Shown piece by piece: positions 49,701 through 64,000 of a stretch of DNA of 64,000 bases. A program made the translations under genes and the position numbers. This stretch comes from Flavobacterium pisciphilum. GTDB taxonomy: Bacteria > Bacteroidota > Bacteroidia > Flavobacteriales > Flavobacteriaceae. Numbering within the stretch: the first letter of the stretch is position 1; every line of letters starts with the position of its first letter. Below the pieces are notes generated by a model that saw only the letters and a program-made list of their open reading frames with translations, was not told the origin of the DNA and ran no database searches. The DNA lies in NCBI RefSeq assembly GCF_020905345.1, contig NZ_JAJJMO010000001.1, positions 186,001 to 250,000 on the forward strand, in the 5' to 3' direction.

Positions 49701-50606
49701 ACAAATACATCTGGTGCCGATACTTCAGGATACGGAAATTATGTTTCAAAAAACATTACATTAACTCCAAACACAAGCACATCAGTTAGTCTTACTCCTG
49801 GTTTTGCAAGTTCAAATTACACAGAATCTTGGGGTGTTTGGATCGATTATAACAAAAACAATACATTCGAAGCATCAGAGAAAGTTATCAATGGACTTTC
49901 GTCAAACGGAACTGTTACAGGGAATTTTACAGTACAAAATAATGCAACAGGATCAACTAGAATGCGTATTGTAATGAAATACAACTCAAACCCTACAGCT
50001 GTATGCGGAAGTATAGGTGATGGTGAAGTGGAAGATTACACAGTAACTTTTGGCCCTTCAAATCCTAATCCGGTAACTCTTGCAACTCCAACAAACATTG
50101 GTAACTCAGGAATTTACGCTGCAGGATTTTATGCTTCATGGACACAAGTAACAAATGCTACAAGCTATGAGGTACAATTATACAAAGCGGCAACAGGATG
50201 GGCAAATGTAGGTACATCAACAACTTACTATTTATGGATTCCAAAACAAGGAACAGAAACTGCTTATAGATTTAGAGTTAGAGCAGTTAATGCTGCTGGA
50301 ACAAGTGACTGGAGTAGTTATCTTGACATAACACTTCCACTTGCAGGAGCTGATGCCAATGAGGCTTTAAATGAAAATAAATCATTTACTATGTTTCCAA
50401 ACCCAGCTACCAACGTAGTAAACTTTACTTTTGAAAACATTAATAGTGCAAATGCTGTAATTACTATTTACAACAATAACGGAAATGTAATCGATACTGT
50501 TCGAAATACATCAAGTTATACTGTCAAAAATTTGCCAACAGGAATTTATCATGTTATCCTAACTGACGGCGCTTTTAAACAAAGCAAAAAATTATTGATA
50601 AATTAA
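46752..50606 (+). CDS. Secreted M43 (pappalysin-type) metalloprotease with GEVED, fibronectin-III and T9SS C-terminal domains
   Basis: The 1284-residue protein has a signal peptide (about 1-19, VSAQ) and a metzincin catalytic domain. THEFGHFLNLIHTF lies near residue 230 and NYMGYNG, the Met-turn, about 50 residues later. Two long tandem repeats follow (about 440-610 and 715-860), sharing YGWFKV, ANALKIETY and PGAYPxQLDLRTA. Next come a fibronectin-III domain (about 870-960), a GEVED domain (about 965-1100, with WIDYNKNNTFEASEKV and GDGEVEDYTV) and a second FN3-like domain (about 1110-1190). A T9SS type A sorting domain (about 1210-1284, FTMFPNPATNVVNF) ends it. It should be a cell-surface or released protease; the two repeats are probably adhesive. 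Confidence 0.93.
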   Translation: MKPKLLLFMAFIFILKVSAQGLPCKAKEENDKIYKQNPNALKEKQNFDAFSKKFSAERKSKTSKLLQTSYVIPVVFHIYGDIQSGKTVTYEKIVNHLAQLNDDFNGRNADYATVDPFFQARRGTLNIEFKLAKIDPSGGCTSGVVFHAAKNGYGNGGGYDDQIAADAWDNTKYMNVYIQNDLYQDGALNNSGVAWYPDSGMTANNTARVVFNGAYLYDNSYSKEFSATLTHEFGHFLNLIHTFEGGCTGTDEVADTPLEDGLHTLACTQGTNCNGDRVNNENYMGYNGAQGCYKMYTQGQIDRMLAALEHPARKTLWQESNLVATGVNNSGSLLTVNASSFKEAVPNDGSFDTSSVITLSGTKTLALSSGTMIAGTHFTHTFPAGITPILTVNSNSQITVTLTGKATNHLVANNTKGAINFLPAAFTGGTTGLSCTSLYFDLKFVNPYGIFFVDMPDVTVSSALIWKYFEIEKGDDPAFGGWRFAANALKIETYAKKLVCETGTKNISLLGSNTQVGATSNFTAPGAYPNQLDLRTASYTNWDGKTGYVGFTYLIDGLTCYGWFKVTVAANGDGYTISEYAYNTQPGGSIYTGMTAKTAVVLSANTLYEADANDGGITTGTEISLSTNNGTFTKSTGTFTAGTDYTISGVPAGLTAVLTLKSNSKVALTFTGKANAHLPANDAAIVVTFKDAAITGGIITLDNAAKTINIKFDAPYGIVYVDNPDFVVSSTSTWDYINLGIGDNTEYGAWRYAANALKIETYGKRLVGQTGTRNITKIAAGTSIGASSVFVTPGAYPDQLDLRTAAYTTWDNQTGYVGFEYTSRGRTCYGWFKVKVAANGDGYSITDYAYNSKPFEAIIAGATNGTTVAAPTNLVATANSTTLQAVLTWTDNATNETGYSVERASTDGVYSVIATLGANIATYTNTGLTAGSTYTYQVRANANTTYSDYSNVATAVIAGTGAYCAANGANQYEYIKDIVIGSFTNTSGADTSGYGNYVSKNITLTPNTSTSVSLTPGFASSNYTESWGVWIDYNKNNTFEASEKVINGLSSNGTVTGNFTVQNNATGSTRMRIVMKYNSNPTAVCGSIGDGEVEDYTVTFGPSNPNPVTLATPTNIGNSGIYAAGFYASWTQVTNATSYEVQLYKAATGWANVGTSTTYYLWIPKQGTETAYRFRVRAVNAAGTSDWSSYLDITLPLAGADANEALNENKSFTMFPNPATNVVNFTFENINSANAVITIYNNNGNVIDTVRNTSSYTVKNLPTGIYHVILTDGAFKQSKKLLIN

Positions 50607-50833: not shown

Positions 50834-51949
50834 TTAATCTAGATCAAAAATTTTACCTAAATGCTCTTCCATTACAAAATATGGATCGTCTGTATGGGTC
50901 ACTGATCGCATGTGTATCAAACTCGTTTTACTCATCATTCTCAACATTTGACGACGTTCACATTTTACAATTTTACCATTCTCATTTCGCTGTCCAGCTA
51001 CAAAAGCGCTTCTTCCATGAGCACATAAATGGTTGTTAACAAAAATTACATCACCCGAATTCGGAACGTATTCACTGTTAATAAGCGTTTTTGCTTCATT
51101 CCAAAAGTCAGTTAAATAGCTAAGAGCCTCAGGAGTCTGCCCTGCATTTTCATTAAATATTTGTTCCGCTGCATCAAAACGAATAAAAGGGAGCTGTCTA
51201 TTACCGTATAATACAGAGCTTGTTGGACCAGCCGTCAAGTCTTCATCACTGTGATTGGCATCCTTTGGACATTGGTAAATAGGTTCAAATAATTTTTCCA
51301 TTGCAGAGTTTACTTCACCATGAGAACGAATCGAATATAAAGTTGAAGGAACTCTTTCTTCATTTCTTAAATAAAGAAAACTTAAAAAATCGGCTTGATT
51401 AAGCAAAAAGGCATCTTCGGTATGTACATACAAATCCGTTTTTGATCCTGATCCGGTTTGAGTAGTAGACATTTTTTCATCTGGAATCACTGCATGCAAT
51501 AATCCTCCACCCTTTCTTTGAGCATAATATTGCACTGGTTTAGATGGTACAGCTCCGTGAAGAAGCGAACATATAAATCCATATTTATTTAATTTGCTAT
51601 GATCTGCTCCTTGCCAGTTTGGAGGTGTTGGACCTAGGTCGTCCTGATCGACTTCTAATAAGCCTTGAAATACAATTGCGCCATATTGATTGGCTGAAAA
51701 ATCAGATCCAAACTGGCTTAAAATTCTTGTAATTCGTTCGGGTAATAATTGAAAAGCATGAAGGTGGAGAGCGCCAATATATTCGGGATTTTCGTAATGA
51801 TCGAATGCTTTTACTAAAAGATTTCCAACATTAGATAAAATATTCCTCTCTTGTGGGGTAACCTCAATGATTAAAGGTCTTGTAGGAATTTCAAAGGGTA
51901 AATTTTTTACAGTTGGTTCCTCAACTGAGATGACTGATTGTGATTTCAT
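50834..51949 (-). CDS. TauD/clavaminate-synthase-like Fe(II)/2-oxoglutarate dioxygenase
   Basis: The 371-residue cytoplasmic enzyme shows the facial triad: HTEDAF (His and Glu, about residue 177) and the distal His in NNHLCAHGRSAFVAG followed about 15 residues later by Arg (ERRQMLRMM). The second-sphere pattern resembles VioC/AsnO-type clavaminate synthase-like oxygenases that hydroxylate amino acids. It is divergent from the siderophore operon across a spacer with palindromes. It may make a beta-hydroxy amino acid or modify a siderophore precursor; substrate is unknown. Its iron dependence makes its location interesting. Confidence 0.87.
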   Translation of the reverse strand: MKSQSVISVEEPTVKNLPFEIPTRPLIIEVTPQERNILSNVGNLLVKAFDHYENPEYIGALHLHAFQLLPERITRILSQFGSDFSANQYGAIVFQGLLEVDQDDLGPTPPNWQGADHSKLNKYGFICSLLHGAVPSKPVQYYAQRKGGGLLHAVIPDEKMSTTQTGSGSKTDLYVHTEDAFLLNQADFLSFLYLRNEERVPSTLYSIRSHGEVNSAMEKLFEPIYQCPKDANHSDEDLTAGPTSSVLYGNRQLPFIRFDAAEQIFNENAGQTPEALSYLTDFWNEAKTLINSEYVPNSGDVIFVNNHLCAHGRSAFVAGQRNENGKIVKCERRQMLRMMSKTSLIHMRSVTHTDDPYFVMEEHLGKIFDLD

Positions 51950-52128
51950 TTGTTTTTAAACGTTTATGGGAGTTAATAGATAAATGTGTATTAAAATGCA
52001 ATGCATTAATAACAAGTATCATACAGTAGTAGATTTGGGGCTTTATAATCTGTCTGTACAGGCATTCGTATAAAATTTTTCATTTTTTTTTAATTTTTAT
52101 TAGTATTAATTTATACATTTGTTTTTAC

Positions 52129-52137
52129 TTAGTCTAA
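52129..52137. promoter_or_regulatory. Operator-like palindrome 1 in the siderophore divergent promoter
   Basis: TTAGTCTAA is a perfect odd palindrome, in the context ACTTAGTCTAAATA, repeated 38 bases later as TTAATCTAA. The TTAG..CTAA core resembles DtxR/IdeR-family iron boxes. Iron-dependent repression would fit the neighbouring genes, but no regulator is encoded here. Confidence 0.4.
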
Positions 52138-52166
52138 ATAAAAAGTACTTACAAATATATTTTTAT

Positions 52167-52175
52167 TTAATCTAA
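52167..52175. promoter_or_regulatory. Operator-like palindrome 2 in the siderophore divergent promoter
   Basis: TTAATCTAA sits inside an ATTTA-ATC-TAAAT palindrome (52165-52177), 36 bases before the nitroreductase start. It shares NNTTARTCTAAATAA with copy 1. Confidence 0.4.
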
Positions 52176-52211
52176 ATAACAATAGTTTTTTTGAAAAAAA
52201 TTGAAAAAAAA

Positions 52212-52847
52212 ATGAATTTTAAAAAGAACACCAATAAAATAGCGACGTCAGAATCTTCTGAAGACTCAAGTAAAATATCTGAAAACATTCGCAACAGAAG
52301 AAGCGTTTTTGCCGATCAATATATTAAGAAAGATATCGCCGAAGAATTGCTCAATGAGATACTAATAAATGCAACATGGGCACCCAATCATAAAATGACC
52401 GAACCATGGCGATTTATTGTTTTGAAAGGTAAATACCTCAAAGACTATGGAGAATATATGGCAAATTATTACAGGGATTTTTATGCAAAACAGCTTTCTC
52501 CACAAGAACTAGAGGAAAAACTAAACTACCTAAGAGAATATCCGTTAAACACAGCGTGTTTAATTGGGGTAATCCTAGTTCATAACCGTAAAATCAATCT
52601 GCCAGAGTGGGAAGAAGTTGCTGCAATAGCTTCGGCAGTACAAAATATGGCATTAACCTGTACGGCCAATAATATCGGAAATTATTGGAGTACAAAAAAT
52701 GTAGCAATCGATTATATAGCACAATTTGGCTTGGCCGAAAACGAAAAATCACTAGGCATACTTTATCTCGGATACTATCCCGAAAATTTAGAACTATCAA
52801 ACAAAAAAAGAACTCCCATATCTAAAAAAGTAATGCACTTAGAATAA
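52212..52847 (+). CDS. Nitroreductase family protein
   Basis: The ATG at 52212 is preferred over a TTG at 52191; this gives 211 residues. The nitroreductase FMN-binding signatures RNRRSVFADQYIKKDI near the start, ATWAPNHKMTEPWRF (FMN phosphate/ring site) and ASAVQNMALTCTANNIGNYW are clear. LGILYLGYYPE is the usual C-terminal segment. These enzymes reduce nitro compounds, quinones or related acceptors with NAD(P)H. As the first gene after the operator palindromes and 29 bases before the decarboxylase, it is probably part of the siderophore operon, possibly as a reductase for iron release or for a biosynthetic step. Confidence 0.88.
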   Translation: MNFKKNTNKIATSESSEDSSKISENIRNRRSVFADQYIKKDIAEELLNEILINATWAPNHKMTEPWRFIVLKGKYLKDYGEYMANYYRDFYAKQLSPQELEEKLNYLREYPLNTACLIGVILVHNRKINLPEWEEVAAIASAVQNMALTCTANNIGNYWSTKNVAIDYIAQFGLAENEKSLGILYLGYYPENLELSNKKRTPISKKVMHLE

Positions 52848-52876: not shown

Positions 52877-54403
52877 ATGAACAGCACATTGACTACCAAT
52901 GAGGCGTCTAACAAGACGGTGCTTATCCCCCAACAAGATTTCTATAAGGATATCTTTCACCAGCATACAAACGATGAGTATGCTCAAGCCATACAATTGG
53001 CACAGGAAAGAGTAACAAATTTCCTGAAAAACAACACCAAACCTTTTAGCGGAATCAGACCAGAAGATATCCGAAAAAAAGTAGAAAATGTCGATTTGGG
53101 AACTCCCCTATCCGATTACAAAAGTTTACTTGATGAAGTAGACGAACTTTATGTAGAACATGCTACAGCTTTTCATTTGCCAGAGTACATAGCGCATTTA
53201 AATTGTCCAGTAGTAATTCCAGCCTTAGCCGCAGAGGTTCTAATAAGTGCTATTAATTCCTCGCAAGACACTTATGATCAAAGTGCTGGAGGTACATTTA
53301 TGGAACGAAAATTAATCGACTGGACTAGTGAACAAATTGGTTATTCATCAAATGCCGATGGTATTTTTACTGCAGGAGGTTCACAAAGTAATCTAATGGG
53401 CTTGCTTTTAGCAAGAGATTATTTCTCATTAGAATATAAAAAGTGGAACATCAAACATGATGGTTTGCCACCAGACGCAAGTAAGTTTCGTGTTTTTGTA
53501 TCAGACAAAGCCCATTTCAGTAATCACAAAAACGCTTGGATTCTAGGTCTTGGAGAACAAGCTATTGTACATGTTGGTGTAGATAGCCGTTATAGAATGG
53601 ATCCTACACAACTAGAAAAAGCAATAGCAAAAGAAATAGAAAACGGAAATATTCCTATCGCTATCACTGCTACAGCAGGAACAACCGATTTTGGTAATGT
53701 AGATCCATTAGATGCCATATCACAAATTGCTGGCCGTCATAATTTATGGCTTCACGTAGATGCTGCCTATGGTTGTGGGCTGTTGCTATCAGAAAAACAC
53801 AGACACCTCCTATCAGGAATTGAACACGCGGATTCAGTTACAATTGATTACCACAAATCATTCTTTCAACCTATTAGCAGCAGTGCTTTTATTGTAAAAA
53901 ACAAACTGCATCTAAACATTATCAAGCACCATGCTGATTATCTAAATCCGAAAGAGCAAAATTATGATGCGCTTCCGGCTCAAATCAATAAATCAATTAT
54001 TCAAAGTACCCGTCGTTTTGACGCTCTTAAGCTTTGGTGTACGCTAAGATACATGGGCAAAGAAAAGCTAGGTCAATACACTGATGCTATTATTGAAACA
54101 ACAAAAGAAACTGCAGGTCTTATAGAAACCGATTCTGATTTTGAACTTTTATGCCATTCTGATCTTGGAGTATTGGTTTTTAGATACATCAACGGTCCTA
54201 CAGAAGCGCTTCCTTGCAACGTAAACCAGTACATCAAAGAAAAACTCTTTTTTAGTGGAGAAGTTTTATTGGCTAGTACCAAAGTAAATGGAGAATTCTA
54301 CCTCAAATTCACCATTTTGAACCCCCTCACTACCCTAAATGATATTAAACATATTCTTAACCTAATTAAACAAACCGGAAATGGCTACCAAAGAGTTAAC
54401 TAA
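52877..54403 (+). CDS. PLP-dependent group II decarboxylase (lysine/diaminobutyrate/ornithine type), siderophore pathway
   Basis: The 508-residue enzyme has the group II amino-acid decarboxylase pattern: GGTFMERKLIDW, GIFTAGGSQSNLMGLLLARD, HVDAAYGCG (Asp binding the pyridine N), and DYHKSFFQP with the Schiff-base Lys. In NIS siderophore clusters, DesA-type members decarboxylate lysine to cadaverine and RhbB/Dat-type ones 2,4-diaminobutyrate to diaminopropane. No aminotransferase for diaminobutyrate is in the window, which favours lysine or ornithine as substrate (inference). Its stop overlaps the start of the next gene by 23 bases. Confidence 0.92.
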   Translation: MNSTLTTNEASNKTVLIPQQDFYKDIFHQHTNDEYAQAIQLAQERVTNFLKNNTKPFSGIRPEDIRKKVENVDLGTPLSDYKSLLDEVDELYVEHATAFHLPEYIAHLNCPVVIPALAAEVLISAINSSQDTYDQSAGGTFMERKLIDWTSEQIGYSSNADGIFTAGGSQSNLMGLLLARDYFSLEYKKWNIKHDGLPPDASKFRVFVSDKAHFSNHKNAWILGLGEQAIVHVGVDSRYRMDPTQLEKAIAKEIENGNIPIAITATAGTTDFGNVDPLDAISQIAGRHNLWLHVDAAYGCGLLLSEKHRHLLSGIEHADSVTIDYHKSFFQPISSSAFIVKNKLHLNIIKHHADYLNPKEQNYDALPAQINKSIIQSTRRFDALKLWCTLRYMGKEKLGQYTDAIIETTKETAGLIETDSDFELLCHSDLGVLVFRYINGPTEALPCNVNQYIKEKLFFSGEVLLASTKVNGEFYLKFTILNPLTTLNDIKHILNLIKQTGNGYQRVN

Positions 54404-56822
54404 ATTTAAACAAACAGCAGAGCAAGTCAATTTTAAATCCCTATTAAATTGTTATTGCAGAGAATTCAGCAACTGGAGTCGTTACAAAGGAGTTCCAAAA
54501 TATGATCCTGCACTGGCAGATTATATGCAAAAAATCAATCATGATTCATTTCTTAGATTTGATTTTACTGCCATAGGTGTTGAAGTTTTTGCTCCATTAG
54601 AATACTTTTCAGAAAGTGGAGTACACTCTTATTACTTCCCAGTTATAGTGCGTAATTGCAAAACAGATGAAATACAACAAATAGATCCGATACATTTCAT
54701 CGAGCTTGCTACCGCATTCGCTAAAACAGATTATCCAGATGTTGACTCCGAAGCAACTAAAAAACGTTTGGAAAATAGTATCGCTAATCTAGCGCAATAT
54801 CTGTCACATTTTGAAGCCAATAATCGTACAGCCAATAGTCCAGAGCAAACTTTTATCGAATCAGAACAATCCCTGATTTTAGGGCATACAGTGCATCCTT
54901 TACCAAAAAGTAGAGAAGGTTTTACAAGTGATGAACTTGAAAAATATTCTCCAGAAACAGCTGGACAATTCAGATTACATTTTTTCTTGATTCATCCAGA
55001 CAATGTCTTAGAAAAAAGTTCTGAAGAGTATTTGATGACAGATTATCTAAGAAAAGAAATTTTAGTTTCAGCAAGTACTAATGCCAAAGATTTACTAAGT
55101 CTTTACCCAGATTGGAAAGTTGTGCCAACTCATCCCTGGGAGGCAGATTACTTGCTAAAACAACCCGAAGTAAAAGAAATGCTATCTAAGGGAATCTTGT
55201 TTAGTTTAGGGCAGTTTGGATCTCCTTACACTGCTACATCATCTGTTCGTACAGTGTATAATGCTGATAGCGAATGGATGTACAAATTCTCATTACATGT
55301 AAAAATCACCAATTCTTACCGTGTAAATTACCTTCATGAGTTAAATCGTGGTTATGACGCCAGCGAACTTATGAAAACTGATTGGGGAAAAGGTATTAAA
55401 AAAGACTATCCAGAAATAGAACTTATCAGCGATCCTGCCTACATAGCCGTTACTTATCAAGATAAGGTTATTGATGGTTTTAGCACCAGTATACGTCAAA
55501 ATCCATTTCATGGAGCTGCTGCAAACAAAAACATTAGCATGATTGCTTCCTTAACTCAAGATAGTGTTTTAGGACAATCACCAAGAATGCTCAACTTAAT
55601 TACAGAAGCAGCAAAACGCCAAAATAAAGAAGTAGCAGATGTTGCGCTGTTGTGGTTCAAACAATATTTAAATATTACCATCCGTCCATTAGTAGGAATC
55701 TTTAATAAATACGGATTTGGTTCAGAATACCATCAGCAAAATATGTTGGTAGAATTTGATGCCAATCTTTTTCCATCAAAACTTTATTTTAGAGACAATC
55801 AAGGCTGTTTCTTTCGTCAAGGAAAAGTAGAAGAACTTCAACAAATCATTCCAGATTTTGGTAAAGATAGCCGCTCTTTTATAGCCGAATCAAGAATTAT
55901 AGATTTCTGGGGGTATTATCTTTTGGTAAACCATTTGCTTGGAATCGTAAATGCATTGGGCAAAAATAAATTGGCAGACGAGCAAGTATTGATTAGTATG
56001 ATATACGAATCTCTAAAAGCCGAAGAAGAATCGGATACTACAGGCTTGATTGCACATTTCATCAACAGTGTAAAACTAGTTGTGAAATGCAACTTGCTTA
56101 CTAGTCTTAATAATATGGATGAAGCAAGTGCACCAAGGACAAATCCTGCAATTTATAAAAGCTTTCCAAATCCATTAAACAAGTACTTCTATTCACAAGA
56201 ACTAATTAATCCGCAAGGAACAGGAACAGTTTTTAGTCGTTATTTCGAAAAAGAAAACGTTACAATAACGCTACGAACTGTAGATGTCGATAAAGATTTA
56301 GAAATGTTACACGAATGGTTTCATCGTGAGCATGCACTAACTATTTGGAAAATGAATTGGCCAATTAGACAATTGGAAACCTATTACCGCACATTACTAC
56401 CAACAGACGTAGTACATAGTTATATAGGTGAAGCCAATGGTATAGCTACTTTTAACATTGAGGTATATTGGGCAAATCGTGATATCGTTGGAAATTATTA
56501 TGATGTTTTACCATCAGATTATGGAACCCATCAATTTATTGCTCCAACCGACCCAAAATTGAAATTCGGTTCCCCTGCCACCCAATCAATGATGGATTTT
56601 GTTCTTGGCGAAGCCAAAGTAGGCAAAATGGTTGGTGAAGGTTCTGTAGATTCATTAGCATCTATGATGAACAAGGCTCATGTTGGATTCAAAATTCAAA
56701 AAGTAATCGAAATGCCAGATAAAAAGGCAAATCTTAATTTTTGTTATAGAGAATGGTATTGGGCTAAATTCCCCGCTGCCAAAGATTTCCAGAATATTCT
56801 AGTTACAGCACCCCAAATCTAA
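54381..56822 (+). CDS. IucA/IucC-type NIS synthetase fused to GNAT acyltransferase
   Basis: This 813-residue fusion has an N-terminal NIS synthetase domain (about 1-590). GHTVHPLPKSREGF lies near residue 165, VVPTHPWEADYLL near 250, and TSSVRTVYN and KITNSYRVNYLHELNRG follow; RPLVGIFNKYGFGSEYHQQN carries the catalytic-site region. The C-terminal domain (about 620-813) is the AlcB/RhbD/IucB-type acetyltransferase, with ITLRTVDVDKDLEMLHEWFH, WYWAKFPAAKDF and GEGSVDSLASMM. The fused acyltransferase would acylate an N-hydroxy-diamine and the synthetase couple it to citrate or succinate. The order in one polypeptide suggests substrate channelling. It overlaps the decarboxylase gene upstream by 23 bases. 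Confidence 0.92.
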   Translation: MATKELTKFKQTAEQVNFKSLLNCYCREFSNWSRYKGVPKYDPALADYMQKINHDSFLRFDFTAIGVEVFAPLEYFSESGVHSYYFPVIVRNCKTDEIQQIDPIHFIELATAFAKTDYPDVDSEATKKRLENSIANLAQYLSHFEANNRTANSPEQTFIESEQSLILGHTVHPLPKSREGFTSDELEKYSPETAGQFRLHFFLIHPDNVLEKSSEEYLMTDYLRKEILVSASTNAKDLLSLYPDWKVVPTHPWEADYLLKQPEVKEMLSKGILFSLGQFGSPYTATSSVRTVYNADSEWMYKFSLHVKITNSYRVNYLHELNRGYDASELMKTDWGKGIKKDYPEIELISDPAYIAVTYQDKVIDGFSTSIRQNPFHGAAANKNISMIASLTQDSVLGQSPRMLNLITEAAKRQNKEVADVALLWFKQYLNITIRPLVGIFNKYGFGSEYHQQNMLVEFDANLFPSKLYFRDNQGCFFRQGKVEELQQIIPDFGKDSRSFIAESRIIDFWGYYLLVNHLLGIVNALGKNKLADEQVLISMIYESLKAEEESDTTGLIAHFINSVKLVVKCNLLTSLNNMDEASAPRTNPAIYKSFPNPLNKYFYSQELINPQGTGTVFSRYFEKENVTITLRTVDVDKDLEMLHEWFHREHALTIWKMNWPIRQLETYYRTLLPTDVVHSYIGEANGIATFNIEVYWANRDIVGNYYDVLPSDYGTHQFIAPTDPKLKFGSPATQSMMDFVLGEAKVGKMVGEGSVDSLASMMNKAHVGFKIQKVIEMPDKKANLNFCYREWYWAKFPAAKDFQNILVTAPQI

Positions 56823-56839
56823 TCATAAAAACAACTACA

Positions 56840-58213
56840 ATGAGTACAGAAAAAATATACTCGGTTATAGGTATTGGTATCGGTCCTTTTAACCTTGGCC
56901 TTGCAGCTCTTATGGAGCCTGTGGAAGAATTATCATCACTATTTTTTGATCAGTCAGAAAGTTTCGACTGGCACCCTGGTTTAATGTTAAGCAACGCTAC
57001 ACTTCAAGTTCCATTTTTAGGAGATTTGGTAACCATGGCTGATCCTACAAGCAAATACAGCTTCCTTAATTTTATCAAAGAAAGCGGACGATTGTATAAG
57101 TTTTATATTCGAGAAAGTTTCTTCATCTTCCGAAAAGAGTACAATGAGTATTGCAAATGGGTCGTTGCTAAACTACACAATTGTAAGTTCTCACATAAGG
57201 TCGTAGCTCTTGATTATGTCGATGGTCTTTATGAAGTTACAGTTACAAATACTAAAACTTCTATCACAACGACTTACTATGCAAAGAAACTGGTTCTTGG
57301 AACAGGTACATCACCACATGTTCCAGATTTTATAGATAAAGATGCATTGCCAAATGTGGTACACGCTTCAAAATATTTAGACTATAAATCAAAGATTAAT
57401 AAAAGTACTTCAGTGAGCATTATTGGTTCAGGTCAAAGTGCAGCAGAAGTATTTCGTGACCTTTTGCCAGAAACAGAAAACGGATTACAACTAAAATGGT
57501 TTACCCGTTCTTCTCACTTCTTCCCTTTGGATAATAAATCAAAGCTAACACTCGAATTGACTTCACCAGAATATGTGGATCATTTTCATAGTTTATCAGA
57601 TGTTAAGCGCAAACAATTATTAGCAAGACAACATGGACTTTATAAAGGTATTGATCAAGAACTTATCAACGAAATTTTTGATCGTTTGTATGAAATGAGT
57701 TTAGAGAATACACCATTGAATGTTGAATTGCGTTCGAATCTACGCCTTACTGATATTGCTGGTGCAGACAATGGTTCTTATGACATGAATTTCATGCATA
57801 CAGAGCTAGAAAAACCCTATCAAGATCAAAGTGATTTTGTTATCCTTGCCACAGGTTATACTTATAAAGAACCTGCAATACTTGAAGGAATCCAAAACAG
57901 AATTGATCGCCTAGAAAACGGTTTGTTTAATGTACATCGCAATTATACTATCGATAAAAACGGGAAAGATATTTTTGTTCAAAATGCTGAATTACATACT
58001 CATGGACTTTCAACTCCCGATTTAGGAATGGGTGCTTATCGTAATTCTTGGATTATTAACCAATTAGCTAATCGTGAAGTGTACAAAGTTGAAAAACGTA
58101 TTGCATTCCAGGAATTTGGTGTAGAAAAATCTGCTGAAAAATACCTGCAAGAAGTTGCCTTAAATACTGTGGACGAACGATTAGACAACGAAGTATTAAT
58201 ACAAACAAACTAA
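56840..58213 (+). CDS. L-lysine/L-ornithine/diamine N6-hydroxylase (IucD/AlcA/DesB-like flavin monooxygenase)
   Basis: The 457-residue enzyme shows a FAD-binding motif GIGIGPFNLGLAALME near the N-terminus and FDWHPGLMLSNATLQVPFLG (hallmark of N-hydroxylating monooxygenases). The NADPH motif is IIGSGQSAAEVFRDLLPE near residue 195, and ATGYTYKEP and ENAELHTHGLSTPDLGMGAY complete it. It N-hydroxylates an amine to give the hydroxamate oxygen. With the decarboxylase upstream, cadaverine or putrescine is a likely substrate (AlcA/DesB type) rather than free lysine; this is inference. It lies 17 bases after the fusion gene. Confidence 0.95.
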   Translation: MSTEKIYSVIGIGIGPFNLGLAALMEPVEELSSLFFDQSESFDWHPGLMLSNATLQVPFLGDLVTMADPTSKYSFLNFIKESGRLYKFYIRESFFIFRKEYNEYCKWVVAKLHNCKFSHKVVALDYVDGLYEVTVTNTKTSITTTYYAKKLVLGTGTSPHVPDFIDKDALPNVVHASKYLDYKSKINKSTSVSIIGSGQSAAEVFRDLLPETENGLQLKWFTRSSHFFPLDNKSKLTLELTSPEYVDHFHSLSDVKRKQLLARQHGLYKGIDQELINEIFDRLYEMSLENTPLNVELRSNLRLTDIAGADNGSYDMNFMHTELEKPYQDQSDFVILATGYTYKEPAILEGIQNRIDRLENGLFNVHRNYTIDKNGKDIFVQNAELHTHGLSTPDLGMGAYRNSWIINQLANREVYKVEKRIAFQEFGVEKSAEKYLQEVALNTVDERLDNEVLIQTN

Positions 58214-58219
58214 GATATA

Positions 58220-60052
58220 ATGATAACCCCCAAAGACATATTCAAAGATACCCAGCATCTCGATGCGGGTATCTGGAATAAAGTAAATCGCAACCTACTT
58301 GCCAAAAGTATCGCAGAATTAATGCGTGAAGATGTGATAAAACCTGTAATTGTGAGTCAACAAAAAAAGGGTCACACCCTTTTTAGATTAGAGACTGATA
58401 ATGAAAATATTTATTATACTTTCTCTGCTTATCTAAGGTTCTTGAATTACTGGCATATTGACAAAGAAAGTATTCACAAAAATGAAGATGGAAATGAATT
58501 AAGCACACTTGATGTTCCTAATTTCTTTATTGAACTTCAAAATACTATTGGCATAAATTCTTTTACATTAGCCCATTACGTAGAAGAGTTGTTGCATACA
58601 TTATATGCAGATGCTTTTATCCAAAATAACAATCGTTTATCTGCTGCTGAACTTGCAGATTCAGATTTTCAAACTATCGAACATAGTTTGGACGGACATC
58701 CTTGGGTAATTGTAAACAAAGGTCGTATTGGTTTTGATACTGAGGATTATGTAAACTTCACACCTGAATCGGGTCATAATACGCATCTTTTATGGGTAGC
58801 AGCACATAAAGATCGTGCTACACTCCATTTAGGAGCCGACAAAAATCAGGATGCATTTTATGAAAGCGAATTAGGCAAAGAGAAAATAGCTTCTTTTAGA
58901 AAATTATTGACTCACGCAGAAGTTAATCCTGAGGATTATATCTTCATTCCAGTTCATTTGTGGCAATGGCAACAAAAATTAGTAATGCAATTTGCGCATG
59001 ATATTACTGCAAAGTATATTATTCCGCTAGGGTTGTCTGATGATTTGTATAGCCCACAGCAAAGCATCCGCACATTTTTTAATTTGAGTCAGCCAAACAG
59101 ACATTATGTAAAAACATCTATGTCAATCTTAAACACTAGCCACATTAGAGGATTGTGTCCAAAACAACTTTCTGTTGCTCCTCGCCTAACCGATTGGATT
59201 AAAAATGCAGTCAAAAGCGATCCTTATCTCCAAGAAATGGAAGTGGTGCTTTTAGGTGAAGTGGTTTCAGTAAGTTATGCACATTCTAGCTATAGCAAAA
59301 TTAAAGATGCTCCCTATCAGTATAATGAATTCCTAGGGGCAATGTGGCGCGAAAACCCAGTCAATTCTTTAAAAGAAGGTGAAAACCTAATGACTATGGC
59401 TGCCTTATTACATGTTGATAATCAAGGTAAAAGTCTGGTTCAGGAGCTTATAGAAAAATCTGGACTTTCTACAGAAGAATGGTTGAAGACTTATTTTAGA
59501 GCTTATTTAAAGCCAGTGATGCAACTGTATTATCAGCATTCATTATGCATCGATCCACACGGACAAAATGTAATTCTTATTTTAAAGGACTACGTTCCAA
59601 CCCGAATAGCCTTGCAGGACTTTGTGGGAGATATTCTAATTAATGAAGAAGCAAAGAAAAAACTACCACAAGAGTTTATTGATAAGCTTTTTAATGCATC
59701 GCCAAATCCCGAAAATGCACCTTTAGTTATTCTTATAGCCGTTTTTGATGCCTTTTTTAGATACTTAAGCGATGTAATGACAACTGCAGCCAACTATCCT
59801 GAGGTTTCTTTTTGGAATTGTGTGCATGATATCATTATAGAGTATCAAGAAGAGCATCCAGAGCTAAAAGAAATGCTTGATAAGTATGATTTATTCATTC
59901 CAGAATTTAAACGACTCATCTTTAATAGCCGTCGTTTATTTAATGGTTACGAAGAAACATCTGGATTTCCGCATATGAAAAAAAGCGGTTTTATACCTAA
60001 CCCTTTGCATCAATTAGTAACAGAAGATTTGGCAACAATAAAAGAAAATTAA
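58220..60052 (+). CDS. IucC/AlcC/DesD-type NIS siderophore synthetase
   Basis: The 610-residue synthetase has GHPWVIVNKGRIGFDTEDY near residue 155, FIPVHLWQWQ near 245, QQSIRTFFNLSQPNRHYVKT near 295, and SLCIDPHGQNVILILKDYVP near 440, which includes the catalytic-site region of the family. This is the second NIS synthetase in the operon, so the final product should need two condensations, e.g. at both ends of citrate or for a succinyl-diamine oligomer. Its GHP motif with NKGRIGF differs from the KSREGF of the fusion protein, suggesting different substrates. Confidence 0.94.
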   Translation: MITPKDIFKDTQHLDAGIWNKVNRNLLAKSIAELMREDVIKPVIVSQQKKGHTLFRLETDNENIYYTFSAYLRFLNYWHIDKESIHKNEDGNELSTLDVPNFFIELQNTIGINSFTLAHYVEELLHTLYADAFIQNNNRLSAAELADSDFQTIEHSLDGHPWVIVNKGRIGFDTEDYVNFTPESGHNTHLLWVAAHKDRATLHLGADKNQDAFYESELGKEKIASFRKLLTHAEVNPEDYIFIPVHLWQWQQKLVMQFAHDITAKYIIPLGLSDDLYSPQQSIRTFFNLSQPNRHYVKTSMSILNTSHIRGLCPKQLSVAPRLTDWIKNAVKSDPYLQEMEVVLLGEVVSVSYAHSSYSKIKDAPYQYNEFLGAMWRENPVNSLKEGENLMTMAALLHVDNQGKSLVQELIEKSGLSTEEWLKTYFRAYLKPVMQLYYQHSLCIDPHGQNVILILKDYVPTRIALQDFVGDILINEEAKKKLPQEFIDKLFNASPNPENAPLVILIAVFDAFFRYLSDVMTTAANYPEVSFWNCVHDIIIEYQEEHPELKEMLDKYDLFIPEFKRLIFNSRRLFNGYEETSGFPHMKKSGFIPNPLHQLVTEDLATIKEN

Positions 60053-61458
60053 TGAAAACCACTTTATATAAAACGCGTTCATTTTTTAGCCTTTTAAAAC
60101 GTTCATTGTCTGGAAGTGAAAGCAATTTTACAAGCGGAAGCATCAACAAAACAATCATTTTGTTGTCTGTGCCAATGGTTGCCGAATTGCTAATGGAGTC
60201 TTTATTTGTGTGCTCAAACCTATTCTTTGTAAGTAGATTGGGTACCAGTGCAATTTCTATTGCTGGAGCGACAACTACTTTTATAACCTTTTGTTATTCA
60301 GTTTCGATAGGTTTAGGTATAGCAGCTTCGGCTTTGATTTCTAGAAGAATTGGTGAGAAGAAATTTAAAGCAGCAGGGCTTACGGCAATGCAGGTTATTT
60401 ATATTACAACACCAATTGCCACATTAATAAGCGTAGTGTGTACAATATGGAGTGATGAAATCATGAGTGCTATGGGGCTTTCTCCTGCCATGGTTAAGGA
60501 AGGAGCTGCCTACGGAATAGTTATGTTTGCCTCTAGCGGATTTTTAATTCAGCGTATTGTCATTAACGGAATATTTCGTGGAGCCGGTGATGCCTCAACA
60601 GCAATGAGAATCCTTTGGTTGTCTAATGCATTGAACATCATATTGTGTCCAATATTCATTTATGGCTGGGGGCCTATTCCCGCTTACGGCTTGGTTGGTG
60701 TGGGAATAGCTACATTAATTGCCAGGGTTATTGGTGTTGCTTACCAAGCATGGTATTTAATAAAAGGCAAAACAGTACTCCGAATTGGAAAAGCACAATT
60801 GGTTCTTCAATTTGACATTTTAAAAAGAATCGTTAAACTCGCATTTAGCGGTACAGTTCAATTTATCATTCCAGCTTCTAGTTGGGTGTTTATGATAAAA
60901 ATTATGTCACATTTTGGAGAAAATGCCTTGGCTGGTTACATATTAGCACAAAGAGTTACCTCTATAGCCACTATGCCAGCTTGGGGACTTGGTAATGCCG
61001 CAGGAATATTAACTGGGCAGAACCTTGGAGCCAAACAACCCGATCGTGCCGAAAAATCAGTTTGGAGAGCAGGAACTCTTAATATGGGATTCTTAGTTAT
61101 CATTGGTATTTGCTGGATATTTCTTGCTGATCCAGTTGTGAAAATCTTCACAGATATTCCTGAAGTGGTTTCTCATAGTACGATGTATATCCATTTTATT
61201 TCGATGGCATATATACTGTTAGGTTATACAATGGTAATTTCCAGAGCACTAAACGCTGCTGGTGATGTAAAAGTTGTTACTTGGCTTTATATCCTTATGT
61301 TTTACGTGGTGCAAATTCCGCTAGCCTATGCTTTGGGAGTTGCTTTTGATTTAGGTACAAATGGTGTTTTTACAGCCATCCTTGTTTCGGAAATCGTACT
61401 GGCAGTAGCCTGTATCGTTATCTTCCGTAAGGGAAAATGGAAAACAACAAAAGTTTAA
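60052..61458 (+). CDS. MATE family multidrug/siderophore exporter
   Basis: The 468-residue protein has about 12 membrane helices in two repeats (SVPMVAELLMESLFVCSNLF and ALAGYILAQRVTSIATMPAW). It has the MATE-like motifs GAGDASTAMRI and VISRALNAAGDV. Its start codon shares one base with the stop of the NIS synthetase gene. Position in the operon suggests siderophore export across the inner membrane, a role MATE proteins play in some clusters; other substrates are possible. Confidence 0.88.
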   Translation: MKTTLYKTRSFFSLLKRSLSGSESNFTSGSINKTIILLSVPMVAELLMESLFVCSNLFFVSRLGTSAISIAGATTTFITFCYSVSIGLGIAASALISRRIGEKKFKAAGLTAMQVIYITTPIATLISVVCTIWSDEIMSAMGLSPAMVKEGAAYGIVMFASSGFLIQRIVINGIFRGAGDASTAMRILWLSNALNIILCPIFIYGWGPIPAYGLVGVGIATLIARVIGVAYQAWYLIKGKTVLRIGKAQLVLQFDILKRIVKLAFSGTVQFIIPASSWVFMIKIMSHFGENALAGYILAQRVTSIATMPAWGLGNAAGILTGQNLGAKQPDRAEKSVWRAGTLNMGFLVIIGICWIFLADPVVKIFTDIPEVVSHSTMYIHFISMAYILLGYTMVISRALNAAGDVKVVTWLYILMFYVVQIPLAYALGVAFDLGTNGVFTAILVSEIVLAVACIVIFRKGKWKTTKV

Positions 61459-61491
61459 TAAAAATTTAATTAATATAAAAAAATAGAAAAT

Positions 61492-61734
61492 ATGAACACA
61501 ATAGAACAATTAAACGGTGTATTTGCAAGAGCTTTTGAAATTCCAGTTGATGCAGTAAAAGATGATTTAGAATATCAAGGAATTGCAGAATGGGATTCTA
61601 TGAGTCATCTTGTTTTGGTTCAAGAACTTGAAAGCACTTATAATATTTCTATCGAAATGGAAGATATCCTAGAAATGGGTAGCGTAGAAAAAATTAAAGA
61701 TATACTTAAAAAATACGGGTTCGATATTAATTAG
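61492..61734 (+). CDS. Acyl carrier protein in siderophore operon
   Basis: This 80-residue acidic four-helix protein has the phosphopantetheine site EWDSMSHLVLVQELES with Ser36. A downstream ITVEMEDI-like motif (ISIEMEDILEMGSVEKIKDI) follows. It is encoded 33 bases after the MATE gene and 15 bases before an AMP-dependent ligase gene, so the two should work together: the ligase loads an acyl group on the ACP. An ACP is not part of the classic NIS siderophore pathway. Confidence 0.92.
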   Translation: MNTIEQLNGVFARAFEIPVDAVKDDLEYQGIAEWDSMSHLVLVQELESTYNISIEMEDILEMGSVEKIKDILKKYGFDIN

Positions 61735-61749
61735 AAGATAGTAAGAACT

Positions 61750-63141
61750 ATGGAACTATATAATTTAATTAGAAAAAACGAAAAGTTAACCTTTACAGAT
61801 TCGAGTACTGGAATTTCCAAATCTATTTCGGAAATGCACCAATCACTTGAAATTGACAACCTAAGATCAGTAGTCTTTATTTACAGCGATAATCAATTAC
61901 CAGCGATAGAAACATTGCTGAATTTTTATCAAAGTAAGTTTGCGATAGCTTTATTAGGATTGAGCTTAAACGAGAATTTTAAGGAGAATTTAGAAGAAAA
62001 GTACACGCCGTACTATATTTATGATCCATCGCGTACAACTATAGATGGATATAGTCTGGTGAATGCTTCAGATACTATAATGTTATTTAAGCGTCAGGAA
62101 AATTCTATTTATCCTATAAATCCTAAGATAAAGCTTTTGTTGAGCACTTCAGGAACAACAGGTTCTCCTAAATTTGTTAGGCTTTCGGATGAGAATTTGG
62201 TACAGAACGCCAAGTCTATCATGGAGTACATGCCTATCAAAGGAGAGGATGTAGTACCATTAAATGTGCCAATCAATTTTGTGTACGGATTATCGATTTT
62301 CACAACAAATTGTATCAAGGCAAATCATATTATTTGTACTGATAAAGATGCTTTTCAAAAAGAGTTTTGGTCAGATTTTAAAAAATACGGGTACTCCACT
62401 TTAGGAGGAGTACCGTATTTTTATGAAATGCTTTTCAGCATTGGATTCTTTAAAAAAGACCATCCATCACTGCGATACCTTACTCATACAGGAGGAATGC
62501 TAAACCATAAACTGATTGAAGCAATTTCTGAATACAGTGAGAAATTCGGAAAGCAGTTTTTTGCTCAATACGGTCAAACAGAAGCCTGTGGAAGAATGGC
62601 TTATTTACCACCAGATGATTTATTAAGAAAAGGAACTTCTATTGGTCGCCCTATTCAAAATGGACATTTTGAAATAGATAGCGAAACTTCAGAATTAATC
62701 TATCATGGGCCAAATGTATTTGGTGGTTACGCCAACAGAAGAGCTGATTTGCAATTCTATGAAGAACAAGAAAAGCTCCATACAGGAGATAAAGCAAGAA
62801 TGGATAATGAAGGCTATTATTATATTATAGGACGTATAAAACGAATTGTAAAATTATTTGGTGTACGACTTAATCTTGATGAAGCTGAACTCCTTTTAAA
62901 AGATGCTTTAGGTGGGCAGACCTTTATTTGCCTAGGTATAAATGATAAGCATCTAGCCGTTTTATATACAGATGAAGCTCTAAATAAAGAATTGATTCTA
63001 AAAGTATTAAAAGCAAAACTAGGGATTCATGCTAGTTCATTAAAGGTTATCTATCTAGAAGATGGTGTTCCGCTAACCGCTAATGGAAAAGTAAATTACC
63101 CACTTATTAAAGAGCGACTCGAAACAGAGGTACTTGTTTAA
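61750..63141 (+). CDS. AMP-dependent synthetase/ligase (acyl-activating, ACP-loading)
   Basis: The 463-residue enzyme has ANL-superfamily motifs: LLLSTSGTTGSPKFVRLS (P-loop A3, about 128-145), GGVPYFYEML, YGQTEACGRM (A5), TGDKARMDNEGYYYIIGRIK (A7-A8), and the C-terminal ANGKVNYP with the A10 Lys. The N-terminus is shorter than in acyl-CoA synthetases. With the ACP beside it, it is probably an acyl-ACP or fatty-acid/aryl adenylating ligase. Substrate cannot be assigned by eye. It ends the operon. Confidence 0.9.
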   Translation: MELYNLIRKNEKLTFTDSSTGISKSISEMHQSLEIDNLRSVVFIYSDNQLPAIETLLNFYQSKFAIALLGLSLNENFKENLEEKYTPYYIYDPSRTTIDGYSLVNASDTIMLFKRQENSIYPINPKIKLLLSTSGTTGSPKFVRLSDENLVQNAKSIMEYMPIKGEDVVPLNVPINFVYGLSIFTTNCIKANHIICTDKDAFQKEFWSDFKKYGYSTLGGVPYFYEMLFSIGFFKKDHPSLRYLTHTGGMLNHKLIEAISEYSEKFGKQFFAQYGQTEACGRMAYLPPDDLLRKGTSIGRPIQNGHFEIDSETSELIYHGPNVFGGYANRRADLQFYEEQEKLHTGDKARMDNEGYYYIIGRIKRIVKLFGVRLNLDEAELLLKDALGGQTFICLGINDKHLAVLYTDEALNKELILKVLKAKLGIHASSLKVIYLEDGVPLTANGKVNYPLIKERLETEVLV

Positions 63142-63154
63142 TAAAAATTAAAAA

Positions 63155-63187
63155 AAAGGCTATCAAATTTATTTTTGATAGCCTTTT
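63155..63187 (+). terminator. Terminator of the siderophore operon
   Basis: Arms AAGGCTATCAAA and TTTGATAGCCTT with a short loop and T tract; about 15 bases past the ligase stop. Confidence 0.92.
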
Positions 63188-63311
63188 AAATTTAATAGTA
63201 ATTCAAACTATTAGATTTATTCTCCTTTTTTGATTTGTGACTATTCACTTAAAAGTAAATCATCTTTAATCATACTCATCATTTTATTAAATACTCGAGG
63301 TCTTTAAAAAG

Positions 63312-63347
63312 AAAAAGGTTTCTGATATACTATCAGAAACCTTTTTT
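63312..63347 (-). terminator. Terminator of the downstream TonB receptor gene
   Basis: Arms AAAAAGGTTTCTGATA and TATCAGAAACCTTTTT with a short loop. It lies about 20 bases past the minus-strand stop at 63368 and could also back up the siderophore operon terminator. Confidence 0.9.
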
Positions 63348-63367: not shown

Positions 63368-64000
63368 TTAGAAGCTATAACCAACAGCTAAATTAAATCT
63401 TGAACCATTTCCTCTTGTATAATTGGCATTAGTACCATAAAATTGAGAAGTTGTAGTATAATATGATGTATTAAGAAGATTTTCAATACCAAGTTTCACT
63501 CTAATCTGACTTGTTACTTTATATGCTGTAGCCAAGTTCCATAGGTTAAATGATTTAATTGGTCCTTCGCCAATAGCATAAGCTCCTTTGGCATTAGGTT
63601 TAAAGTAATCTCGATCACCTACATACATCCAATACACTTCAACATTTAATCTTTCGTTTCCAAATTTTGCATAACCAGTCATTTTAACTGGAGGAATTCT
63701 ATTCGATTTTAGATAAATATCATTGTCACCATAAAAATGACCGTCTCCATCTTTATCTCCTCTACCCTGTACATAAGCATAATTTCCTCCTATGGTAAGT
63801 TCTTTAATTAATTGGTAATCCAATTGAACTTCATAGCCCCATACACGTTCTGGTAAACGTTCAGCAAGTAATAAACCATCTACTTGAATTAAGTTAGTAC
63901 CTAATTTTGAAGTACTATAGTAATAAGCAGCGCTAAGATTTAATTTTCCTAATTGACTACTAAATCCACCTTCGTAGTTATTAACGATAATCGGTTCTGT
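63368..64000 (-). CDS. TonB-dependent receptor, C-terminal part (probable ferric-siderophore receptor), cut by window edge
   Basis: The minus-strand frame is open from 64000 to a stop at 63368 (211 codons). The computed start at 63823 is a TTG inside it, so the true start is outside. The sequence has alternating beta-strand pattern: GFSSQLGKLNLSAAYYYST, ERVWGYEVQLDYQLIKEL, LGIENLLNTSYYTTTSQFYG. It ends in RFNLAVGYSF with a terminal Phe, all typical of the TonB receptor barrel end. Convergent to the siderophore operon, it is likely the uptake receptor for its product. That is inferred from position. Confidence 0.88.
   Translation of the reverse strand, partial: TEPIIVNNYEGGFSSQLGKLNLSAAYYYSTSKLGTNLIQVDGLLLAERLPERVWGYEVQLDYQLIKELTIGGNYAYVQGRGDKDGDGHFYGDNDIYLKSNRIPPVKMTGYAKFGNERLNVEVYWMYVGDRDYFKPNAKGAYAIGEGPIKSFNLWNLATAYKVTSQIRVKLGIENLLNTSYYTTTSQFYGTNANYTRGNGSRFNLAVGYSF

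Follow-up and report, generated by a model that had tools for sequence, protein, structure and literature searches.

We investigated a siderophore locus in a 64,000-nucleotide (nt) stretch of the Flavobacterium pisciphilum genome (assembly GCF_020905345.1, contig NZ_JAJJMO010000001.1, positions 186,001 to 250,000), hereafter the window. With fair confidence, we read it from its sequence as a locus for a chryseochelin-type siderophore in which an adenylating ligase would load fumarate onto a dedicated acyl carrier protein (ACP), which in turn would feed a GNAT-family acyltransferase fused to a siderophore synthetase. Chryseochelin A, described from Chryseobacterium in 2023, is a citrate dihydroxamate containing two 3-hydroxycadaverines and two fumaric acids, the latter as fumaroyl hydroxamates (PMC9989332). 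Its discoverers regard these substructures as unreported before and state that the biosynthetic pathway needs further studies to be proven; its main text uses none of the words cluster, BGC, ligase, or acyl carrier (PMC9989332). Each part of this molecule has a fitting gene in the window, and the evident task left over for the ACP and the ligase is fumarate activation. A chryseochelin-type product is likely, probably chryseochelin A itself or a close isomer, with fumarate as the probable acid and the ACP as its probable carrier.

The locus comprises the following features:

50834..51949 (−), lysine 4-hydroxylase (KDO), a KDO5-type Fe(II)/alpha-ketoglutarate oxygenase (matches PDB 6euo over its full length)
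52191..52847 (+), nitroreductase-family flavoprotein, opening the operon (PF00881)
52877..54403 (+), pyridoxal phosphate-dependent decarboxylase, predicted for lysine / 4-hydroxylysine (PF00282)
54381..56822 (+), IucA-type synthetase of the nonribosomal peptide synthetase (NRPS)-independent siderophore (NIS) class with a C-terminal GNAT hydroxylamine acyltransferase (PF04183, PF06276, and PF13523 in one chain)
56840..58213 (+), flavin-dependent diamine N-hydroxylase of the lysine/ornithine type (PF13434, E 1.2e-115)
58220..60052 (+), IucC/SbnF-like NIS synthetase (PF04183, PF06276)
60052..61458 (+), MATE exporter (PF01554; TIGR00797 over cut-off)
61492..61734 (+), ACP, 80 amino acids (aa), predicted fumaryl carrier (PF00550)
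61750..63141 (+), ANL adenylating ligase, 463 aa, predicted fumarate:ACP ligase (PF00501)
63154..63187 (−), terminator-like hairpin 3' of the ligase (14 pairs)
63311-63347 (both strands), second terminator-like hairpin, in the ligase/receptor interval (16-17 pairs)
63368..64000 (−), 3' part of a TonB-dependent siderophore receptor (PF00593; TIGR01783 under cut-off)

An earlier sequence-only reading had delimited a seven-gene operon from decarboxylase to ligase. All seven genes are present at its coordinates, and the Pfam matches from PF00282 to PF00501 bear out its domain content; the locus itself proved larger, including the divergent KDO, the nitroreductase, and the TonB receptor. The seven genes follow each other head to tail in one direction (decarboxylase, IucA-GNAT fusion, N-hydroxylase, IucC, MATE, ACP, ligase) with intergenic gaps of −23, 17, 6, −1, 33, and 15 nt, and the nitroreductase precedes the decarboxylase by 29 nt. 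Given these short gaps and the two long hairpins after the ligase, the ACP and the ligase appear to be transcribed with the other operon genes; terminator-like sites across the whole window are not above chance (10 versus 7.5 expected). The receptor, 792 aa in full, extends past the window (L003:13368-15746) and is convergent with the operon. Two proteins match both PF04183 and PF06276 (FhuF-like C-terminal domain) over cut-off, placing the locus among NIS pathways. Judged by these domain matches, the decarboxylase, N-hydroxylase, hydroxamate acyltransferase, and two NIS synthetases predicted for chryseochelin are all present. The best NCBIfam match of the decarboxylase, the RhbB-type 2,4-diaminobutyrate (DABA) decarboxylase model, and the SbnF match of the IucC-like synthetase (E 7.3e-75) both stayed under cut-off.

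In the proposed pathway, the KDO would hydroxylate lysine at C4 and the decarboxylase would convert the resulting 4-hydroxylysine into 3-hydroxycadaverine, one amine of which would then be N-hydroxylated. The ligase would adenylate fumarate and load it onto the phosphopantetheine of the ACP, from which the fused GNAT would move the fumaryl group to the hydroxylamine, giving a fumaroyl hydroxamate. The IucA half and IucC would couple two such fumaroyl units to citrate, the MATE protein would export the product, and the TonB receptor would retrieve its ferric form. Three points of this scheme are inferred: that the ligase acts on fumarate, that the acyl donor is the ACP rather than coenzyme A (CoA), and which product F. 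pisciphilum makes.

The KDO, absent from the sequence-only reading, is the gene that points to the product, as decarboxylation of 4-hydroxylysine yields 3-hydroxycadaverine. Its protein aligns end to end with PDB 6euo (L-lysine 4-hydroxylase KDO5; 734.6 bits, E 1.5e-220) and keeps His176, Glu178, and His312, which we take to be the iron ligands. All seven residues described as surrounding the substrate and succinate are likewise kept (Gln144, Thr165, Tyr193, Asp230, Asp260, Arg334, and Arg338; PMC6224419). By overall match and active-site residues, the window thus carries a putative C4 lysine hydroxylase of the kind expected for chryseochelin, predicted to make the 4-hydroxylysine that is the source of 3-hydroxycadaverine. 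KDOs from Flavobacterium, Chitinophaga, and Niastella were reported to form (4R)-4-hydroxylysine (PMC12930750).

The arrangement is widely conserved. A scan of species genomes with alignment of the ligase gave at least 488 relatives, the best 80 of which were kept. In 76 of these 80 loci, decarboxylase, GNAT, N-hydroxylase, IucC, MATE, ACP, and ligase are all present, and in all 76 they stand in the same order on one strand. Two of the remaining four end at a contig or locus edge (L043, L051), and two from Pedobacter (L046, L049) are without a local decarboxylase and N-hydroxylase. The ACP and the ligase hold the same place and order across several families of Bacteroidota, in line with the earlier proposal that they belong to the siderophore operon. 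Chryseobacterium accounts for 37 of the best 80 loci by title, and every one of them has KDO, decarboxylase, GNAT, N-hydroxylase, IucC, MATE, ACP, and ligase; the nitroreductase has no match in any of these loci (0/37). A KDO lies within the locus in 57 of the 80 and elsewhere in the genome for 14 of the other 23 (71/80 in total); one of the nine genomes without it is a metagenome-assembled genome. Among 150 Flavobacterium genomes, the fusion occurs in 14, a close ligase (at least 64%) in 13, and the KDO in the same 13. The fourteenth fusion genome (G204) has decarboxylase, fusion, and N-hydroxylase on a contig that ends soon after the cluster, and its assembly gave no KDO or ligase match. A weak ligase match (35%, G230) sits in a locus with sugar-nucleotide genes, as judged by eye.

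The type of acyltransferase goes with the ACP and the ligase. The GNAT domain occupies residues 635-778 of the fusion, C-terminal to the IucA half, has DfoC, MbtK, and SidF among its PDB relatives, and is the single GNAT seen in the cluster. We added to the 80 loci 44 further ones with the fusion or its GNAT part, 17 with and 27 without the ligase (124 in total). Of 86 fusion matches, 41 were examined with their neighbors (37 chosen across the identity range plus G000, G127, G587, and G635), and some strains were fetched twice (e.g. L029 = L101, L049 = L136, L137 = L149). Identity of the GNAT to that of the window (best segment) was 60.6-89.7% in the 96 ligase-bearing loci with a GNAT match versus 46.8-55.7% in the 27 ligase-free ones, which showed no KDO or ACP match within the stretch fetched. 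The IucA-half identities overlapped (19-87% versus 47-57%). In trees built by a quick method from 56 representatives (40 with and 16 without ligase; near-copies and the short ligase-bearing rows L051, L128, and L129 left out), the split by ligase presence received 100% support in the Shimodaira-Hasegawa-like approximate likelihood ratio test (SH-aLRT) with 0.83 changes per column for the GNAT, and 98% with 0.11 changes per column for the IucA half. Among distinct proteins, 18 GNAT columns separate the 91 ligase-bearing from the 26 ligase-free sequences. Together with the constant place of the ACP and the ligase, this difference makes it most likely that they feed the fused acyltransferase, as had been suggested.

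Seven genomes (G1265, G1364, G1246, G1273, G1338, G1266, and G702) carry two fusion clusters. One consists of IucA-GNAT, IucC, MATE, ACP, and ligase and lacks decarboxylase and N-hydroxylase; the other combines decarboxylase, IucA-GNAT, and N-hydroxylase, is without a ligase, and its GNAT belongs to the ligase-free type. This division links the ACP and the ligase with assembly and the transfer of the acyl group, and not with provision of the diamine. The two clusters may share the N-hydroxydiamine and make two siderophores. Two of the seven are named Pedobacter: G702 is Pedobacter sp. PAMC26386, and G1266 is apparently P. cryoconitis S3M1 (L049). The two-cluster loci are L116-L119, L130-L137, L046/L148, and L049/L149.

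Another variant lies at L128:8855-17579. On one side stand the KDO and, after it, two NIS synthetases of 614 and 604 aa; the genes divergent from these are nitroreductase, decarboxylase, one for a GNAT protein of 484 aa, N-hydroxylase, MATE, ACP, and ligase.

The ACP scored 23.6 bits against PF00550 (cut-off 20.8). Its Ser36, already named in the sequence-only reading, is the predicted phosphopantetheine site, and W34-D35-S36 is kept in 71 of 71 distinct ACPs including that of the window. An ACP match lies 12-606 nt upstream of the ligase in 80/80 loci. By sequence, the closest PDB matches of the ligase are oxalate-CoA ligases and not fatty acid ligases, although the fatty-acyl FadD13 ties by fold; a profile search found NRPS adenylation (A) domains, DltA, and oxalate-CoA ligases, with the carrier-loading enzymes (NRPS A domains, DltA) on top. 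In NCBIfam, the best model was an exosortase-associated acyl-CoA ligase, and all of the best 25 of 78 matches fell under cut-off. Comparison of a ligase structure model placed 7thq first (Z 26.6, rmsd 5.8, 399 aligned) in a tie with others; since carrier ligases, aryl-CoA ligases (benzoate, feruloyl), and FadD13 all tied, the fold cannot decide the cargo. For the class of carrier-loading ANL ligases, the profile and the adjoining ACP speak in favor, whereas the fold ties with CoA ligases. The 12-position pocket signature of the ligase is identical in 21 of the 37 Chryseobacterium ligases, with Y223F as the sole change in the other 16. In four other relatives, compared in five rows since one protein appears twice, 7-9 of the 12 positions are changed. 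The window and Chryseobacterium have both pocket signature and GNAT type in common.

Departures from this signature and from the full gene set occur within Flavobacterium. Five loci (L015, L018, L021, L023, and L024) have the pocket signature of the window and no KDO match in the genome, for which an analogue with plain cadaverine is predicted. Seven ligases (L028-L033 and L035) have S177 and G247 in place of F and T in the window, and these pocket residues suggest that they may use a different acid.

Several observations weigh against fumarate, or against chryseochelin as such. The chryseochelin-producing strains were not identified among the 37 Chryseobacterium loci. The second NCBIfam match of the ligase is a fatty-acid (long-chain) subfamily, and its structure model neither resolves the pocket nor separates acid types. 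Arg282 is not specific, being common to the outside relatives in L099 and L100, and the ligases of L128 and L129 have a different pocket resembling those outside relatives. Furthermore, the GNAT half is 69-73% identical between the window and the 37 Chryseobacterium loci, whereas the IucA half is only 29-33% identical, so diverged that the coupling chemistry, and with it amide/ester regiochemistry, may differ. Such IucA divergence (L055-L093) might relate to chryseochelin B, an ester-linked isomer.

The sequence-only reading had proposed an acyl chain or an aryl cap as the cargo. In that case, the ACP and the ligase would load fatty or aryl acids for an amphiphilic or capped form, while the GNAT would take fumaryl-CoA or another CoA ester. 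Chryseochelin C, which bears a fatty acyl group on the free amine, is a molecule of this kind (PMC9989332). The long-chain NCBIfam model and the fold tie with benzoate, feruloyl, and FadD13 ligases point the same way, as does the mycobactin pathway, in which an ACP, a fatty acid ligase, and a GNAT handle an acyl chain and whose MbtK is among the PDB relatives of our GNAT. However, the sole GNAT in the cluster differs between loci with and without the ACP and the ligase, the best PDB sequence matches are oxalate-CoA ligases, NRPS A domains, and DltA, the Chryseobacterium gene set goes with a fumaroyl siderophore, and the varied chains found in chryseochelin C suggest that they are drawn from the general fatty acyl pool; we regard such a cargo as quite improbable. 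If the ACP and the ligase supplied some other small acid (succinate, malonate, 3-hydroxybutyrate, or crotonate), the product would be an analogue of chryseochelin; this reading would accommodate the Arg282 shared with L099 and L100, where another short acid is likely beside short-chain dehydrogenase/reductase (SDR) and LuxE/LuxC-like genes (by eye), and the pockets altered at 177 and 247 in seven Flavobacterium ligases. The window signature nevertheless equals that of 21 Chryseobacterium ligases and the GNAT halves are closely similar, which leaves another small acid unlikely.

Activation as a CoA ester would be the more conventional route: the ligase would make fumaryl-CoA, the ACP would be incidental, and the GNAT would use this donor as its homologues use acetyl- or succinyl-CoA. 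Classic NIS acyltransferases do use CoA esters, and CoA and carrier ligases tied in the fold comparison. Against this stand the ACP match beside the ligase in every locus, the invariant Ser36, and a ligase profile that ranks carrier-loading enzymes best, though none of this proves the acceptor; on this evidence, we consider the CoA route very unlikely. That the ACP and the ligase belong to an unrelated pathway, merely trapped behind the siderophore genes, finds an argument in the related ACP-ligase pairs of other loci, but is hardly credible given their constant place and order in several Bacteroidota families, their co-occurrence in Flavobacterium, and a GNAT whose type goes with them. Fumarate delivered by the ACP to the fused GNAT therefore remains our preferred reading.

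Aerobactin-type NIS pathways (rhizobactin 1021, schizokinen, aerobactin) share with it decarboxylase, N-hydroxylase, acyltransferase, and IucA- and IucC-type synthetases, but are not known to include an ACP, ligase, or lysine 4-hydroxylase, and their acyltransferase is separate rather than fused. The mycobactin arm MbtK-MbtL-MbtM-MbtN offers the precedent by analogy for ligase, ACP, and GNAT: there, a GNAT is fed by a ligase-loaded dedicated carrier and yields an alpha,beta-unsaturated hydroxamate, and the window likewise has GNAT, dedicated ACP, and AMP-forming ligase. Mycobactin differs in its long fatty chain, its NRPS origin, and a separate acyl-ACP dehydrogenase. We found no acyl-ACP dehydrogenase in the ten window genes scanned or in five open reading frames downstream of the Chryseobacterium cluster L055; we therefore class the window as working like the mycobactin arm, not as a member of it. 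DfoC of desferrioxamine biosynthesis (PDB 5o7o) also joins acyltransferase and NIS synthetase in one chain, with its GNAT N-terminal (match at residues 21-184) unlike that of the window; its pathway presumably has no ACP or ligase. The proline ligases PltF and PigI (7thq, 6o6e, 7thn) are stand-alone ANL enzymes that load a small carrier protein, but with an amino acid and outside siderophore pathways.

Outside siderophore loci, the Flavobacteriaceae loci L099 (6020-10716) and L100 (6806-11466) contain relatives of the ligase (36% and 43%) and of the ACP (41% and 48%) with other partners, an SDR and by-eye LuxE-like/LuxC-like genes, near sugar genes. Their ligase pockets differ from that of the window at 178, 247, 273, and 281 among others. 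Loci of this type, perhaps a sugar N-acylation system, are a possible source of the siderophore module.

The iuc cluster of Elizabethkingia anophelis has IucA/IucC, iucB-like, iucD, and DABA-like decarboxylase genes; iucA/C, iucB, and iucD were induced 45-69 fold in low iron, and in the chrome azurol S (CAS) assay, supernatant of the deletion mutant behaved as did the uninoculated control (PMC7221216). A cluster of this general kind is thus iron-regulated and needed for CAS activity, which supports the class and not the ACP step. There, iucB is a separate gene, and the terms 'Hydroxylase' and 'acyl carrier' do not appear in that text (PMC7221216). For four Chryseobacterium genomes, siderophore clusters called by antiSMASH are on record (PMC8151938). 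Clusters of this kind were therefore seen earlier, in the cited passages without a link to chryseochelin.

The predicted building blocks of the window (citrate, two 3-hydroxycadaverines, and two fumaroyl hydroxamates) resemble those of chryseochelins A, B, and C, which are known from chemistry. Chryseochelin is also named in PMC11734721 and PMC11927942. Searching the open-licence literature mostly by title or abstract, we found neither a cluster assigned to chryseochelin nor an NIS pathway whose acyl arm uses a carrier protein. The sequence-only suggestion of a siderophore that may be undescribed probably fails for the molecule, known since 2023, and stands for the gene cluster and its carrier-bound fumarate supply, which appear undescribed in the open literature. 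We lean, by a little, towards a broader interpretation: a dedicated fumarate:carrier-protein ligase, together with its ACP, would hand a free dicarboxylic acid from the citric acid cycle to an NIS-fused GNAT. This would be a carrier-protein-dependent NIS branch whose genes (IucA-GNAT, IucC, MATE, ACP, ligase) spread through Bacteroidota as one transferable unit and may have come from loci for polysaccharide N-acylation. NIS pathways could then use carrier-protein-bound acyl donors, and the siderophore type of Bacteroidota would be predictable from the genome, with the KDO indicating whether it is hydroxylated and the ACP and ligase whether it is fumaroylated. The locus also accounts for the two building blocks that the discoverers of chryseochelin called novel, and offers genes on which the biosynthesis of this siderophore, which acts against a plant pathogen and whose pathway they had left open, can be tested.

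The KDO and the nitroreductase are separated by one further feature:

51950..52190 (no strand), divergent promoter region with a conserved block (comparison with Flavobacterium relatives)

Upstream of the nitroreductase, the block (52129-52179) contains TTAGTCTAA at 52129 and TTTAATCTAAATAA at 52166. It was found in several Flavobacterium relatives and not in the Chryseobacterium regions inspected, and is possibly an iron-regulator operator. The motif TTAGNCTAA occurs in the window no more often than by chance (2 versus 2.43 expected). Adjoining the siderophore locus, 46752-50606 encodes a large protein of 1284 aa. It has a zinc-protease-like motif, HEFGH, and visual inspection suggests repeated modules and a C-terminus resembling a sorting signal. 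Past the window, L003:16339-19538 contains an FAD-dependent oxidoreductase with a tryptophan-halogenase-like Pfam match, beside a 697-aa protein that resembles LodA-type oxidases by eye only.

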